DNA of 64,000 nt from Syntrophomonas sp. DTU019 (GTDB lineage Bacteria; Bacillota; Syntrophomonadia; Syntrophomonadales; Syntrophomonadaceae): assembly GCA_913757435.1 (NCBI GenBank), contig CAJYDM010000008.1:16746-80745 (forward strand), written 5' to 3'. Position 1 is the first letter of the stretch. Every line of letters starts with the position of its first letter. This document shows, one piece after another, positions 9,538 through 59,926 of this stretch. The translations under genes and the position numbers were made by a program. The notes under the pieces were generated by a model. That model had not been told where the DNA came from. It ran no database searches and worked only from the letters and a program-made list of their open reading frames with translations.

Positions 9538-9645
9538 TTTCATAAGTGGAGAGCCGGATACGCGGAGACGTGTAAGTCCGGTTCGGAGGCGAATGTTTGG
9601 AAACCTACCGAAGTGATTCGACAAGGCGCCGAGCATTTAGCCTAC

Positions 9646-26643: not shown

Positions 26644-26762
26644 AAAAGGGACGGTTCAGGGACAAAGGGACCAGGGACAAAGGGACGGTTCTGTTGTCCC
26701 AATTATTGGGACAACAGAACCGTCCCTTTGTCCCTGCAGAACCGTCCCTTTGTCCCTGTTTG
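26644..26762. repeat. Palindromic GGGACGGTTCT repeat element
   Basis: A perfect inverted repeat with 31-bp arms spans 26673-26735 (centre T26704). Each arm contains GGGACAAAGGGACGGTTCTG. Partial extra copies of GGGACGGTTC lie on both sides (26647, 26741). A related but different element is at 54457-54555. It can form a very stable hairpin and probably acts as a terminator. Confidence 0.9.
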
Positions 26763-33113: not shown

Positions 33114-33124
33114 TACTGATATAA

Positions 33125-33375
33125 TAAACGAGGAACAGGACAAGTAGCCTGTGTTGTGATCCCGACAGGGAGGTGCGGTCAGCGATTGAGAGCCGGACTC
33201 GGGGTGGGTGCAGGCCAATTCACCTGGGAGTTGTGGGCTGAAATCTTGAGTAGGCTTTACCGGGGTGCCCCGTTAACGGCAAGGAGAGTGAGTCAGGTGC
33301 ATTACCTGGCTAATATGGGTGGTACCACGGAACATGGCTTTCGTCCCTCGGGGACGAGCTTTTTTATTTTCTGAA
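33125..33375 (+). promoter_or_regulatory. T-box riboswitch controlling pheST
   Basis: The leader carries the T-box core GGGTGGTACCACGG (33317-33331). It is followed by a terminator hairpin, CGTCCCTCGGGGACG plus TTTTTT (33343-33365). A stem I region with GGACAAGTAGCC... lies upstream, and UUC at 33219-33221 followed by A is a plausible Phe specifier. A TATAAT at 33120-33125 may be the -10. Uncharged tRNA-Phe would stabilise the antiterminator and switch on pheS-pheT. Confidence 0.88.
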
Positions 33376-54423: not shown

Positions 54424-54456
54424 GCTAATACAAAATTGAATCACGCATGTTAAGGG

Positions 54457-54555
54457 GTGTGACAGGGGACGGTTCTCCGACAGGTGTGACAGGGGACGGT
54501 TCTCCGACACAAGGGGACAGCCGTCCCCTTGTGTCGGAGAACCGTCCCCTGTCAC
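54457..54555. repeat. Palindromic GGGGACGGTTCTC repeat with a duplicated half
   Basis: Inverted repeat with 33-base arms (54486-54518 and 54523-54555, centre AGCC). A 26-bp direct copy of the left arm start precedes it (54457-54482 repeats at 54484-54509). The GGGACGGTTCT core is shared with the element at 26673, but flanking bases differ (ACACAAGG against AACAGAAC...). It lies just after tyrS and likely terminates it. Confidence 0.9.
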
Positions 54556-55112: not shown

Positions 55113-55128
55113 TGGCACAGTTCTTGCT
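55113..55128 (+). promoter_or_regulatory. Sigma-54 promoter
   Basis: TGGCAC (55113-55118), five bases, TTGCT (55124-55128): an exact match to the -24/-12 consensus. The start would be near 55140, giving a leader of about 350 nt before the CoA-transferase. The predicted sigma-54 activator is encoded convergently downstream. Confidence 0.88.
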
Positions 55129-55192
55129 TGTTTATATGGGCGGTACTCGCATTACTATTACTTACTCCTTATCAGCTATATTTTTTTAACAT

Positions 55193-55303
55193 GCTGCTAT
55201 TTTATAGTGACAGAGGCTAAACATATTCAGAAACATACCAGTATTCTGACTAACAATCAAGTCAGCATGAAGCCATTATAAAATAGCAGCCCCCTCCTTT
55301 TTT
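55193..55303 (+). promoter_or_regulatory. Long-range stem and T-run in the CoA-transferase leader (attenuator-like)
   Basis: GCTGCTATTTTATA (55193-55206) and TATAAAATAGCAGC (55277-55290) are a perfect 14-bp inverted repeat enclosing 70 nt. Inside is CTGACT/AGTCAG (55246-55265). The right arm is followed by CCCCTCC and six T (55298-55303). The layout fits a conditional terminator or an RNA processing site. Confidence 0.6.
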
Positions 55304-55491
55304 CCAAGGTGGGGAGAGCCTGCGCAAGAGATATAATTTTCAATACAGAATGCATTAACACAGAAATGACAATAATAATAGCCAAAGGAGTAGTGTGGCC
55401 TAAGTAGTGCTATTGCCATTTGGTGCAGTAAATGCAGCCAGAATCGGGGAACGAAATTTGAAGGTTAGGGTAATGAGGAGGGAAATGTATA

Positions 55492-56868
55492 ATGTTGTAT
55501 GATCGCTGGAAAGAGGAGTATCAAAAGAAGTTGATTACTGCGGACCAGGCAGCCCAGCTGGTCAAATCCGGGGACTGGATTGAATACGGCTTCGGTATTA
55601 CCTCGGGACGTGACTTCGACGAAGCCCTGGCAAAGAGGGTAAACGAATTACAGGATGTTAAGATCCGCTGCGACATCGGTGCCTACCAGCACTTTACGGC
55701 AGAGGCCAACCCGGAAGGTGACGTTTTCACCTGGAACAGCTGGCATGTGGCCGCACATGACAAAAAGTTCATTGGTCAGAACCTCTACTATATTCCTATG
55801 AAATTCCATGAAAATCCCAAAATGACTCGTGAAGACTGTGCGCCGAATGATATTGCGGTGATTCAGTGTACCCCCATGGATAAACATGGCTACTTTAATT
55901 TCGGAGCCGGTGCAGTTAACTGCTGGGCTATGATGGAAACCGCCAAGATAACCATTCTGGAAGTTAACACCAAAATGCCCAGGTGCCTGGGTGGCTCACA
56001 AGAGAGTGTTCATATCAGCCAGGTTGACTACATTATTGAAAGCAAAAACGGTCCGTTGACCACCATAGCACCTGCCAAAGCCAGCGCGGTGGAAATGGAA
56101 ATCGCCAAGTTAGTCATGGCCAAACTGCGTGACGGCTCTTGCATTCAGCTCGGTATCGGCGGTCTGCCCAATGCGGTCGGCACCATGGTGGCCGAATCCG
56201 ACCTCAAGGACATTGGCGTACATACTGAAATGTATGTGGATGCTTATCTGGAAATGTTCAAAGCTGGCAAAATCACCGGTGCTAAGAAAAACATCGATCG
56301 CTACAAACAGGTTTATGCCTTTGTCATGGGCAGCGAGGAATTATATGAATATATGGATGACAATCCGGGACTGGCTTCCTACAACGTGGACTATACCAAT
56401 GATCCCAAGGTCATCTGCCTATTGGATAACTTCGTATCTATCAATGCCTGCGTTGAAGTTGACCTGTTTGGTCAGGTATGTTCGGAATCCTCCGGGGTTC
56501 GCCACATTAGCGGAACCGGCGGGCAGCTGGACTTCGTAGAAGGCGCCTATAAATCCAAAGGCGGGCAGAGCTTCGTATGTATGCCCTCAACCTTTACGGC
56601 CAAGGACGGCACAGTCAAATCCCGTATTCAGCCTATACTGACTCCGGGGGCCATCGTAACTGACCCGAGAACCGCAGTTCATATGCTGGTTACTGAATAC
56701 GGCATCGCCAACATGAAAGGCAAGAGCACCTGGGAAAGAGCAGAAGCTCTGGTGAATCTGGCACATCCGGACTTCAGGGAAGAACTGATTCAGAAGGCTA
56801 CCGAGTTCAAGATCTGGAGAAGAAGCAACAAGATCGACGGCTCTGTAACCGCCGCAGTTGGGGAATAA
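55492..56868 (+). CDS. Butyryl-CoA:acetate-type CoA-transferase
   Basis: A 458-residue family I CoA-transferase of the acetyl-CoA hydrolase/transferase group. It would swap CoA between acetate (or acetyl-CoA) and butyrate-type acids, the activation step of butyrate use in Syntrophomonas. The IGGLPNAVGTMV region and GVHTEMYVDAYLEM carry family motifs; Glu246 of HTEM is where the catalytic glutamate is expected. ISGTGGQLDFVEGAY binds CoA. It is driven by a sigma-54 promoter 364 bp upstream and ends before a repeat-rich 3' region. 4-Hydroxybutyrate or another acid could be the substrate, since this subfamily is hard to split by sequence. Confidence 0.85.
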   Translation: MLYDRWKEEYQKKLITADQAAQLVKSGDWIEYGFGITSGRDFDEALAKRVNELQDVKIRCDIGAYQHFTAEANPEGDVFTWNSWHVAAHDKKFIGQNLYYIPMKFHENPKMTREDCAPNDIAVIQCTPMDKHGYFNFGAGAVNCWAMMETAKITILEVNTKMPRCLGGSQESVHISQVDYIIESKNGPLTTIAPAKASAVEMEIAKLVMAKLRDGSCIQLGIGGLPNAVGTMVAESDLKDIGVHTEMYVDAYLEMFKAGKITGAKKNIDRYKQVYAFVMGSEELYEYMDDNPGLASYNVDYTNDPKVICLLDNFVSINACVEVDLFGQVCSESSGVRHISGTGGQLDFVEGAYKSKGGQSFVCMPSTFTAKDGTVKSRIQPILTPGAIVTDPRTAVHMLVTEYGIANMKGKSTWERAEALVNLAHPDFREELIQKATEFKIWRRSNKIDGSVTAAVGE

Positions 56869-56889
56869 TGGCTGCAAAGCCTTGTTTCA

Positions 56890-57091
56890 GAGCGCCTTGA
56901 AGGAGCGCCAGGTGTCTATGAGTGCCAATGAGCACCGACAGAATGAACGCCTTCGAGCGTCAGCAGAGCGCCTATAAGCGCCCATAGAGCACCATCGAGT
57001 GCCCGGTAGACAAAAAAAAGAGCGCCAGGAGCGCCCCATACAACAGAGCGCCTTGAGCGCCCCCCAAGGATATTGAGTACCTTAGAGTACC
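56890..57091 (+). repeat. Array of 16 GAGYRCC repeats in helical phase
   Basis: AGYRCC-type hexamers start at 56891, 56904, 56921, 56931, 56946, 56956, 56967, 56977, 56988, 56998, 57021, 57030, 57047, 57056, 57076 and 57086. Most are AGCGCC preceded by G; others are AGTGCC, AGCACC, AGTACC, plus AACGCC and AGCGTC. Successive copies usually lie 9-11 bp apart, as pairs with a 3-5-bp spacer. The array follows the CoA-transferase stop and ends just before its terminator, so it would form the mRNA 3' untranslated region. It has no CRISPR-like spacers and no coding sense. Confidence 0.9.
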
Positions 57092-57093
57092 TA

Positions 57094-57130
57094 CGGCAGA
57101 TAAGTGACGATTATCTGCCGTTTTCCTTTA
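57094..57130 (+). terminator. Terminator after the repeat array
   Basis: CGGCAGATAA (57094-57103) pairs with TTATCTGCCG (57111-57120), followed by TTTTCCTTT. It ends the CoA-transferase transcript and touches the 3' end of the convergent activator gene. Confidence 0.88.
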
Positions 57131-59926
57131 TTCTTTTATTCCATACTTAGCTGCTTTGCGCACTACCGAAGGTTGACTGATCCCTAAAGCTTTGGCCACC
57201 TTGTAGGTGGAATTATGCAACGTAAAGGCCTTTTGCAAGAGGCGCCGTTCTGTCTGCTCAATAGCCATAGGCAAGGGCATCAAGTCAGTATCGATCTCGC
57301 CCTGGATATTCGATAATTCCAGGCAGGAATGTACATCATCCTTGGTTATAGTATCATGCAGGTTGGTGACTACCAGGCGTTCGATGAGATTCTCCAGCTC
57401 GCGAATATTTCCCGGCCAATCATATATCAGCATGGGCTGAATGGCATCGCTAGACAGTAGTTTGCTCATCTGATGCTTGCGGTTGTAATAATCCAAAAAG
57501 TACTTGCTCAAGACTGGGATGTCCTCACGCCTCTCTCTTAATGGGGGCACATATACCGGTATCACATTGAGGCGATAAAACAGGTCCTGACGGAACAACT
57601 GTGAAGCCACCATTTGCTGCAAGTTGCGGTTGGTTCCGGCCAGAATTCTGGTATCTACTGAGATGGGTTTGTTTCCACCTATGCGGACGACCTGTTTGTC
57701 CTGCAAAACGCGTAGTAATTTAACCTGCAGATCGAGAGGCATCTCGCTGATTTCATCCAGGAACAGGGTGCCTTCATGGGCCAGTTCGAACATGCCCGCC
57801 TTGCCGGATTTGCTGGCTCCGGTGAAGGCGCCCGGTTCGTAGCCGAAAAGCTCTGATTCCAAAAGGTTGGCTGGGATAGCGCCGCAGTTCACTTTGATGA
57901 AAGGGTGGTCTCTGCGGCCACTGTAGCTGTGCAGGACATCGGCGATGACCTCTTTGCCCACCCCGGATTCGCCCTGTATCAAGACGGTGGAATCAACCGA
58001 AGCTACATGGGTTATCATCTGCAAGAGTTCGCGCATTTTGCGGGAATGGGCGATGCAGTTGCGTCGGTTCTGCAGCTTCAAGTGGGTCAGCTCAGCTTGA
58101 TAGAAACGGCTCAATCCTTCCAGGTGTTCAACTTTGACGTGTAAATCGTTTAATTCGGTCATATCGCGGACATTGGTGACCACCAGGACAATATTGCCCG
58201 AATCGTCAAATATGGGGGTGCTGGTTACCAAGGCGGTCTTGCCTGTATTTGACTCCAGGGGTATGGTGACCTGTTCACGGCGCTGCAGTGCCAAAAGCGT
58301 ACCGGAGCGGGAGAAAACCCCTTCCCTGACTAGGTCAGCCATATTGCGCCCCACCACTTCATCCGCCGAAACCCCAAGTATGCGCTCAAAGGCTTTATTG
58401 ATTCTAAGGGTGTTGCCCTCGCCGTCACTTATATACAGTCCGTCGAAAGAAGATTCAAAAACGGCTGCCAGTTCTCGCTGACGTCGATCCTCAGAATGTT
58501 CCAGCCGCCTTTCCAATTCCGTAAGTTCAGTCATATCACGGACGTTGGTTACTACCAGGATTATATTGCTCTGATCATCAAATATGGGGGTGCTAGTTAC
58601 CAGGGCTTTCTTGCCGATGTTGGACTGCAGCGGAATGGTGACCCGCTCCCGGCGCTGTAAAGCTAACAGGGTTCCGGAGCGGGAGAAGACCCCTTCCCTG
58701 ACCAAGTCCGCCATGTTGCGGCCTACCACTTCTGCGGAGGTAACACCCATGATGCGTTCGAAGGCTTTATTAATACGCAGGGTATTGCCCTCTCCGTCAC
58801 AAATATACAATCCATCGAACGACGATTCAAAAACTGCGTTCAATTCTTTCTGGCGCTGGTCTTCAACCCGCTCCAGCCGTTTTTCCAGTTCTATCAGTTC
58901 AGTCATGTCACGGACATTGGTGACCACCATGACTATGTTGCTATCGGCGTCAAAAATCGGCACACTGGTGACCAAAGCGGTTTTGCCGATCCTGGAAGTG
59001 AGCGGAATGGTTACCGTCTCGCGGCGCTTTAAGGCCAAAAGGGTGCCGGAACGGGAGAAGACTCCCTCTGCTACCAGATCAGCCATATTGCGGCCTACCA
59101 CCTCAGCAGAGGTGACGCCCAGTATGCGTTCAAAGGATTTGTTGATGCGCAAGGTTACCCCTTGTCCATCGCAAATATACAAGCCGTCAAAAGAAGATTC
59201 AATAATGGCGTCAAGCTGGCTGTTCAGCTGCTGGGTGCTCTCCAGTTCCTGAACCACCTTTTCCAGGTCGGAGGTCTCCTGCAATACCGCCACTGCACCG
59301 ATAATTTCATTATCAACCACAACCGGGCTGCGTGAAGACAGAAAGGTTCTGCCCACTGTGTCTATGCGGCGTAAGAACTGCGTCTGGCCGCTGCGTACGA
59401 TATTGGTCAGCTGGCTGTTGTTGAATACTTCTCTGATATCCTTGCCGTAGGCCTGCTTCTGCTCAACCCCGGTAACCTTGGCTGAAGCCTTGTTGAAGAT
59501 ATTGATGCAACCATACTTGTCCACCCCTACGATGGGATTATAGATCCCGTCCAGATAGCCCCGCCAGGCCTTGCGTTCCCGCTTGATCTGTCTCTGGAAA
59601 TAGTAAAGAGCCCGATCCTTCCAGCCTTCTCGGGGAGCATCCGGTACCTCGGCCTGGAGGCGCTCAGCAAAGGATTCCAGATCCTCTGCATATTGAGCAA
59701 ATTCCGGATCCTTGTTCATTAAGGTGGCAACCTTGGTTCGCACTGGCGTACCTTCGGCAATGACCTGCAACAGATGCGAACGGGTCAAAGTGCCCACAGT
59801 CTCCCCACCCGAAGTTACTTTTACCATGTCCAGATGATGGTCCAGCATAAAACGTGCAGCATGATTGGCGGTAGTGTCGGGGGTGATTTCTAGCGGGAAA
59901 TGTTGTTCAGCGGTATTGGCACTCAT
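57128..59926 (-). CDS. Sigma-54-dependent activator with CBS-like, four PAS, AAA+ and HTH domains
   Basis: A 932-residue regulator from ATG 59926 (GAGAGGGAG upstream). An N-terminal CBS-like segment (20-75) is followed by a first PAS (about 120-225). Three near-identical PAS copies follow at about 240-360, 363-483 and 486-606, each with SSFDGLYICDGEGNTLRINK and VTNVRDMTEL. The AAA+ domain has Walker A GESGVGKE, the sigma-54-contacting GAFTGA in GYEPGAFTGASKSG and Walker B LFLDEISEM. The C-terminal Fis-like HTH (NSTYKVAKALGISQPSVVRK) is complete. It is convergent with the CoA-transferase and likely activates its sigma-54 promoter, sensing a small ligand through CBS/PAS. Confidence 0.93.
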   Translation of the reverse strand: MSANTAEQHFPLEITPDTTANHAARFMLDHHLDMVKVTSGGETVGTLTRSHLLQVIAEGTPVRTKVATLMNKDPEFAQYAEDLESFAERLQAEVPDAPREGWKDRALYYFQRQIKRERKAWRGYLDGIYNPIVGVDKYGCINIFNKASAKVTGVEQKQAYGKDIREVFNNSQLTNIVRSGQTQFLRRIDTVGRTFLSSRSPVVVDNEIIGAVAVLQETSDLEKVVQELESTQQLNSQLDAIIESSFDGLYICDGQGVTLRINKSFERILGVTSAEVVGRNMADLVAEGVFSRSGTLLALKRRETVTIPLTSRIGKTALVTSVPIFDADSNIVMVVTNVRDMTELIELEKRLERVEDQRQKELNAVFESSFDGLYICDGEGNTLRINKAFERIMGVTSAEVVGRNMADLVREGVFSRSGTLLALQRRERVTIPLQSNIGKKALVTSTPIFDDQSNIILVVTNVRDMTELTELERRLEHSEDRRQRELAAVFESSFDGLYISDGEGNTLRINKAFERILGVSADEVVGRNMADLVREGVFSRSGTLLALQRREQVTIPLESNTGKTALVTSTPIFDDSGNIVLVVTNVRDMTELNDLHVKVEHLEGLSRFYQAELTHLKLQNRRNCIAHSRKMRELLQMITHVASVDSTVLIQGESGVGKEVIADVLHSYSGRRDHPFIKVNCGAIPANLLESELFGYEPGAFTGASKSGKAGMFELAHEGTLFLDEISEMPLDLQVKLLRVLQDKQVVRIGGNKPISVDTRILAGTNRNLQQMVASQLFRQDLFYRLNVIPVYVPPLRERREDIPVLSKYFLDYYNRKHQMSKLLSSDAIQPMLIYDWPGNIRELENLIERLVVTNLHDTITKDDVHSCLELSNIQGEIDTDLMPLPMAIEQTERRLLQKAFTLHNSTYKVAKALGISQPSVVRKAAKYGIKE

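Follow-up and report, generated by a model that had tools for sequence, protein, structure and literature searches.

Engineered coat-protein binding arrays have a layout similar to that of the locus described here. REP/BIME palindromes are dispersed and occur in many genomic copies, and GGA is important for recognition by CsrA. Among described regulatory RNAs, CsrB holds 18 CsrA-binding copies and CsrC nine in one RNA, with a consensus, RUACARGGAUGU, that is centred on GGA (PMC4347634). The target RNAs of ANTAR proteins have loops with A as the first and G as the fourth base and precede a terminator in leader regions (PMC3369931), ToxI of type III toxin-antitoxin systems is made of structured RNA repeats in tandem with a terminator behind them (PMC8860590), and overlap between the 3′UTRs of convergent genes is a widespread feature that can have a regulatory role (PMC7821165), as far as the sections of these sources drawn on here extend.

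Within the window, that is, the whole 64,000-nt stretch of DNA analysed, the region behind a CoA-transferase gene carries a row of eight small hairpins built from one heptamer, GAGYRCC, that shares single features with each of these systems. Like the ANTAR targets, the row comprises tandem small hairpins with short stems, and in the plus-strand reading the loop is a hexanucleotide in 20 of the 30 hairpins of the window and three relatives. The loop begins, however, with C in 30/30 on the plus strand and with C or T on the minus strand, and there are up to eight units in a 3′ region instead of two tandem hairpins; lacking the A1/G4 hexanucleotide loop, the array is not an ANTAR target of the described kind. 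The genome has two ANTAR-domain matches and one CsrA match over the cut-off. With the CsrB/RsmZ sponges the array shares the many copies of a putative protein-binding sequence in one RNA, but GGA occurs in only 6/30 of its plus-strand loops, which argues against a CsrA sponge. ToxI similarly has tandem structured repeats with a terminator behind them, but its repeats are longer pseudoknots, whereas the units here are hairpins of 16–20 nt; moreover, no same-strand toxin ORF lies downstream, the next gene being an opposite-strand activator. The convergent gene ends with a common sequence recall the excludon arrangement, although the sections of PMC7821165 drawn on here contain no description of a self-complementary heptamer array.

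The placement of palindromic units between gene ends is reminiscent of REP/BIME elements, but each of the four same-genus genomes has one array, and elsewhere in the genome only three further matches to the two-heptamer pattern were found, two of which fall within frames of 775 and 568 aa that lack a stop codon. These few further copies rule out a dispersed family of repeats, including palindromes of the REP/BIME type. We note a single GAGCGCC-TTG-GAGCACC (L003, G000:C5:163051-163067) outside long frames and near T-rich sequence, the core of which is not fully complementary. Covariance models of 4227 Rfam families gave no match to positions 56800–57200 up to an E-value of 1, in keeping with the first-pass annotation, which knew of no named family that fits. 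Among the papers listed by a literature search, which covered few subscription journals, none describes such a hairpin array in its title or abstract opening, and none of those listed deals with RNA regulation in Syntrophomonas-like bacteria, as judged by titles.

The plus strand of positions 56890–57091 (202 bp) contains 13 exact copies of GAGYRCC together with three that are one base off, namely GAACGCC at 56945, GAGCGTC at 56955 and AAGCGCC at 56976, giving 16 in total. Across both strands of the whole window there are 45 matches compared with 25.6 expected from shuffles, and at least 45 were reached in 0/100 shuffles; the shuffle rate predicts 0.04 exact copies per 202 nt of one strand (Poisson p ~1e-28). 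The first-pass annotation had put the copy number at 16, far beyond chance, which agrees with this count. Its start and end of the array are likewise correct, but all five of the coordinate pairs it gives must be lowered by 1 (for example, 56921/56931 should read 56920/56930).

The 16 copies fall into eight close pairs, such that the GYRC of the first copy is complementary to the GYRC of the next across 2–6 nt. The core pair types are CG/CG, TG/CA, CA/TG and TA/TA, and in hairpin 3 ACGC is matched with GCGT. Overall, the 4-bp core is fully Watson-Crick in 28/30 hairpins of the window and three relatives, and it is fully complementary in 14/16 of the informative hairpins, namely those that are not GCGC on both sides. 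As a control, the 3′ half of each hairpin was compared with the 5′ half of the next, where complementarity was seen in 0/22 informative pairings. In re-pairing tests using the six-pair form, positions 1/7′ included, the observed total was reached in 0/200000 trials of random re-pairing within species and in 4/40320 single permutations shared across the three species with eight hairpins, with fractions per species of 0.0005 (window), 0.003 (UBA4922), 0.033 (UBA4807) and 0.002 (DTU019). We consider the pairing of the halves to be well supported. Changes in one half are accompanied by a matching change in the partner half, ruling out the earlier proposal that the variation arose by decay of an ancestral array at CpG. 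The constraint is not confined to the core: G is found at position 1 in 57/60 halves, A at position 2 in 59/60 and C at position 7 in 59/60, so that positions unexplained by the 4-bp core are about as invariant as the core itself. With their matching and co-changing halves, the eight pairs likely act as a row of small RNA hairpins, in agreement with the remark in the first-pass annotation that the array could equally be an RNA element.

The relatives compared are Syntrophomonas sp. UBA4922, UBA4807 and DTU019, which together with the window provide only four sequences. The first-pass annotation had suggested a search of related genomes and had named absence from all close relatives as evidence against the array; when the search was run, the array was found in 4/4 same-genus genomes, the window's own included. 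The 268-bp region has a counterpart in these four and in 0/57 other genomes of a 61-genome set, and the three-heptamer pattern occurs in 4/63 genomes of the order, which are the same four, and in 0/59 others, where absence means absence from the available sequence, many of the genomes searched being incomplete. Among the genomes searched, the array is a real, conserved row of hairpins with matched changes that is restricted to one genus. The window, UBA4922 and DTU019 each have eight hairpins in identical order, whereas UBA4807 has six, having lost two and retaining a broken core in two of the remaining six, with a single hairpin where the other genomes carry hairpins 6 and 7. With gapped columns excluded, pairwise identity is 86–97% for heptamer columns, 54–67% for linkers and 35–59% for loops, compared with 47–59% at fourfold synonymous sites of the neighbouring CoA-transferase; the heptamers have therefore remained static against strong drift at neutral sites. 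Both partners have changed at four pairs, in hairpins 3, 4 and 7 and in the terminator stem, compared with 0 pairs in registers slid by 1–3. Two controls lend less weight to these changes: four such pairs were also reached in 6/500 column shuffles, and further types of pair do not exceed the shuffle level (409/500).

Table 1. Positions of the hairpins and neighbouring features in the window.
Feature	Position	Strand	Remarks
Sigma54-type promoter-like site TGGCACAGTTCTTGC	55113..55127	+	Exact to the consensus searched; starts 379 nt before the CoA-transferase ATG
CoA-transferase ORF, 458 aa	55492..56868	+	Pfam AcetylCoA_hydro, AcetylCoA_hyd_C
Small stem GGCT..AGCC right behind the stop codon	56870..56881	+	Stem in 4/4 genomes, loop variable
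Hairpin 1, GAGCGCC-TTGAAG-GAGCGCC	56890..56909	open	
Hairpin 2, GAGTGCC-AAT-GAGCACC	56920..56936	open	
Hairpin 3, GAACGCC-TTC-GAGCGTC	56945..56961	open	A-U replaces G-C at positions 3/6′
Hairpin 4, GAGCGCC-TAT-AAGCGCC	56966..56982	open	GTGC/GCAC in DTU019
Hairpin 5, GAGCACC-ATC-GAGTGCC	56987..57003	open	Absent from UBA4807
T8 tract directly after hairpin 6	57012..57019	-	7–8 T in 4/4 genomes
Hairpin 6, GAGCGCC-AG-GAGCGCC	57020..57035	open	With the T tract terminator-like on the minus strand (57037-57019)
Hairpin 7, GAGCGCC-TT-GAGCGCC	57046..57061	open	GTGC/GCAC in DTU019
Hairpin 8, GAGTACC-TTA-GAGTACC	57075..57091	open	Same heptamers in 4/4 genomes
Terminator-like palindrome, then T-rich stretch	57093..57121	+	One compensatory C-G/T-A pair among 4 genomes
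Convergent PAS/sigma54-interaction/HTH activator ORF, 932 aa	57128..59926	-	ORF and Pfam domains

The location given by the first-pass annotation, after the CoA-transferase and before a terminator-like palindrome, is confirmed (Table 1). The convergent activator may drive the CoA-transferase, judging from its position. A search for sigma54-type sites with up to one mismatch returned one match in the window compared with 5.7 expected by chance, a count that alone is no proof; support for the candidate site comes from its exact match and from the like position of similar sites in three same-genus relatives, where they lie 360–375 nt upstream of the gene. Among the 19 loci tested, four have an upstream sigma54-type site, namely these three relatives and L039. 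If the site is used, the interval 55113–55491 would place a long 5′ leader before the CoA-transferase. The activator gene itself contains, at 58154–59210, 2.8 copies of a 372-bp repeat (76% match) in its region of repeated PAS domains. Other features of the window are a T-box leader at 33122–33351 (Rfam RF00230, 101 bits), a group II intron match at 9549–9645 (Rfam RF00029, 57.9 bits), an exact 27-bp tandem duplication (2.0 copies) at 54456–54509 behind a tyrosyl-tRNA synthetase-like gene, and, at 26657–26758, two adjoining exact tandem duplications of 15 and 22 bp, whose units share a 15-mer that is inverted between them (CAGGGACAAAGGGAC / GTCCCTTTGTCCCTG).

The pairing signature, the conservation of order and sequence in 4/4 same-genus genomes and the location behind the stop codon and ahead of the terminator-like palindrome are observed directly, whereas the action as RNA rather than as single-stranded DNA, the protein partner and the regulatory effect are what we infer from them. 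We tentatively favour, with confidence that falls somewhat short of even, the interpretation that the eight hairpins form a multivalent docking array for a putative RNA-binding protein, setting the fate of the CoA-transferase and convergent activator messages. A protein partner is suggested because the conservation of G1, A2 and C7 is roughly as strict as that of the core, a constraint that neither an exonuclease barrier nor a terminator would need. Recognition by one protein would be the simplest account, since the unpaired or non-standard positions are invariant while the loops and linkers vary and the cores are compensated. Counting against a docking array are the small number of four sequences, the losses in UBA4807 and the position of hairpins 1–5 past the site where a minus-strand transcript would probably terminate.

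The main rival is a structural double 3′ end that dispenses with a dedicated protein, which we regard as rather unlikely. Here, hairpin 6 with its T8 tract would end the activator message and the palindrome would end the CoA-transferase message, whereas the remaining hairpins would shield the ends from exonucleases or separate the two convergent transcripts. Such an arrangement fits the presence of terminator-like sites on both strands and, more generally, the widespread occurrence of overlapping convergent 3′UTRs noted in the sections of PMC7821165 drawn on here. On the minus strand, hairpin 6 comprises eight pairs, five of them GC, followed by a U tract, and thereby has the GC-rich hairpin and U tract of an intrinsic terminator; its two extra lower pairs on this strand, one of them G-U or G-C, also speak for this role, as does the T tract, which is present after hairpin 6 in 4/4 genomes even though UBA4807 has lost the neighbouring hairpin. 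However, terminator-like sites in the region number 6 compared with 5.0 in shuffles and are thus not in excess, and neither stability nor termination would need a single heptamer in 16 arms with invariant unpaired positions. Neither does a convergent arrangement call for the heptamer: a convergent activator-like frame, recognized by short motifs and not by a profile, lies within 3 kb in 24/60 loci with enough downstream sequence, and in 19 other loci it ends within 400 nt with no GAGYRCC there (at a 20th, L058, the gap after the gene is masked). Within 400 nt behind the gene, GAGYRCC is found only at three same-genus loci, with 10–16 copies, and 0 times at each of the other 57, such that the convergent gene pair has a wider distribution than the array. 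A role of hairpin 6 in terminating the activator message may be compatible with either explanation.

The evidence on which strand works as RNA is divided, as the transcript limits favour the plus strand and the continuous 6-bp stems with G-U ends favour the minus strand. A plus-strand transcript running from the CoA-transferase stop codon to the terminator-like palindrome would include all eight hairpins. The thermodynamic hairpin on this strand is a 4-bp stem, mostly with a 6-nt loop C-NNN-GA, where A2 and C7′ form no standard pair. Extending every unit to a 6-bp stem with a bulged A is weakened as a proposal by changes at positions 1/7′, three of four of which break the pair while the fourth yields G-U, and also by a predicted stability 3 kcal/mol lower than that of the plain 4-bp form (two examples computed). 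In the minus-strand reading, A2 and C7′ correspond to a G-U pair, and the unit is a continuous 6-bp stem with a loop of 3–5 nt in 29/30 hairpins; DTU019 has the only two exceptions at these positions, where the G-U pair is changed to A-U and to G-C.

A functional RNA on the minus strand, with 6-bp stems GGYRCU-C(N2-4)-GGYRCU bearing G-U at both ends and carried in the activator message or in read-through, poses a sub-question that is compatible with the other explanations, and we consider it doubtful. This register accommodates 178/180 pair cells as standard pairs, more than the bulged plus-strand form (175/180) or the ungapped plus-strand form (120/180), but the G-U argument represents one repeated motif and not 60 independent facts. 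The consensus energy is lower on the minus strand (-73.4) than on the plus strand (-52.8), but much of the difference in folding energy reflects base composition, the means of dinucleotide shuffles (-86.4 and -73.1, respectively) differing by 13 kcal/mol compared with 16 for the real strands. The loops are A-rich on the minus strand (42 T and 21 A as read on the plus strand), but the linkers are A-rich on the plus strand (107 A, 46 T, partly an A tract). Likewise, the T8 tract follows hairpin 6 on the minus strand, but hairpins 5–1 then lie downstream of it. Folding z-scores are -3.7 (plus) and -3.9 (minus), and local folding with a span of up to 25 is stronger on the minus strand in 4/4 genomes. 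In the full-length ensemble, the core pairing probability ranges from 0.00 to 0.99 on the plus strand and from 0.00 to 1.00 on the minus strand, and global folding often favours alternative pairings between distant, near-identical heptamers. This predicted competition counts against independent hairpins, unless co-transcriptional folding or a partner holds them in place.

An element acting as DNA, either a double-stranded direct-repeat array or, conceivably, extruded hairpins (cruciform) bound by a DNA-binding protein, appears improbable. The dense direct repeats and the spacing of 10 bp in 5/8 pairs are in its favour, and the first-pass annotation had taken this spacing for helical phasing with protein binding on the same face of the DNA. 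That reading does not hold, as 10 bp corresponds to a heptamer plus a 3-nt loop and the partner halves are mutually complementary, which a duplex direct repeat would not need. In the remaining three pairs the spacing is 13, 9 and 9; within every pair it equals the 7 nt of the heptamer with a loop length of 6, 3 or 2 added, and between pairs it is irregular, so that there is no helical register.

Matches to the heptamer pattern outside the genus are of a different character. The three-heptamer pattern matched 17/396 genomes of the phylum, with G000 and G001 left out, and the laxer GAGNNCC pattern matched 13/59 non-genus genomes of the order. Among 31 distinct out-of-genus loci checked, which are part of these matches (L118-L134, L136-L148, L150), 29 are located within stop-free frames of 158 aa or longer and the other two in frames of 135 aa (L144) and 100 aa (L145). 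A scan of 273 sequences, restricted to the form with A at position 2, six standard pairs and a loop of 2–4, found at least four such hairpins in 260 nt at none of those loci. It flagged the viral stretches L234, L243, L228, L222 and L266 (three units), each a head-to-tail repeat of period 9 made of one or two types of heptamer. A separate scan of viral sequences was seeded with GAGCGCC only and gave at least 120 stretches. BLAST of the array against phages and plasmids gave no match. A simple low-complexity or coding repeat without function, which most of the out-of-genus three-heptamer matches resemble in looking like coding or period-9 repeats, is scarcely credible at this locus, where no long open frame crosses the array, the heptamers stay while loops and linkers drift, and changes occur in pairs.

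Returning to the docking array, we envisage that the same protein would recognize each hairpin, eight times in a row, and that binding would change message stability or termination, or would titrate the protein, while hairpin 6 might double as terminator of the activator message. A more specific proposal, which we hold with less confidence still than the docking array in general, is that of a new RNA element, where a self-complementary heptamer used 16 times gives eight hairpins, the YR step is a pairing code and the whole is an oligovalent scaffold for a putative RNA-binding protein. The code (CG/CG, TG/CA, CA/TG, TA/TA) would keep each half with its own partner, and the scaffold would be shared by the two messages that converge at this locus for fatty-acid metabolism in syntrophic bacteria. 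If the docking-array reading holds, the locus represents an unnamed natural hairpin array located where the 3′ ends of an enzyme gene and its possible sigma54 activator meet; if true, it would point to a new RNA-binding protein and to 3′-end control in Syntrophomonas-like bacteria.
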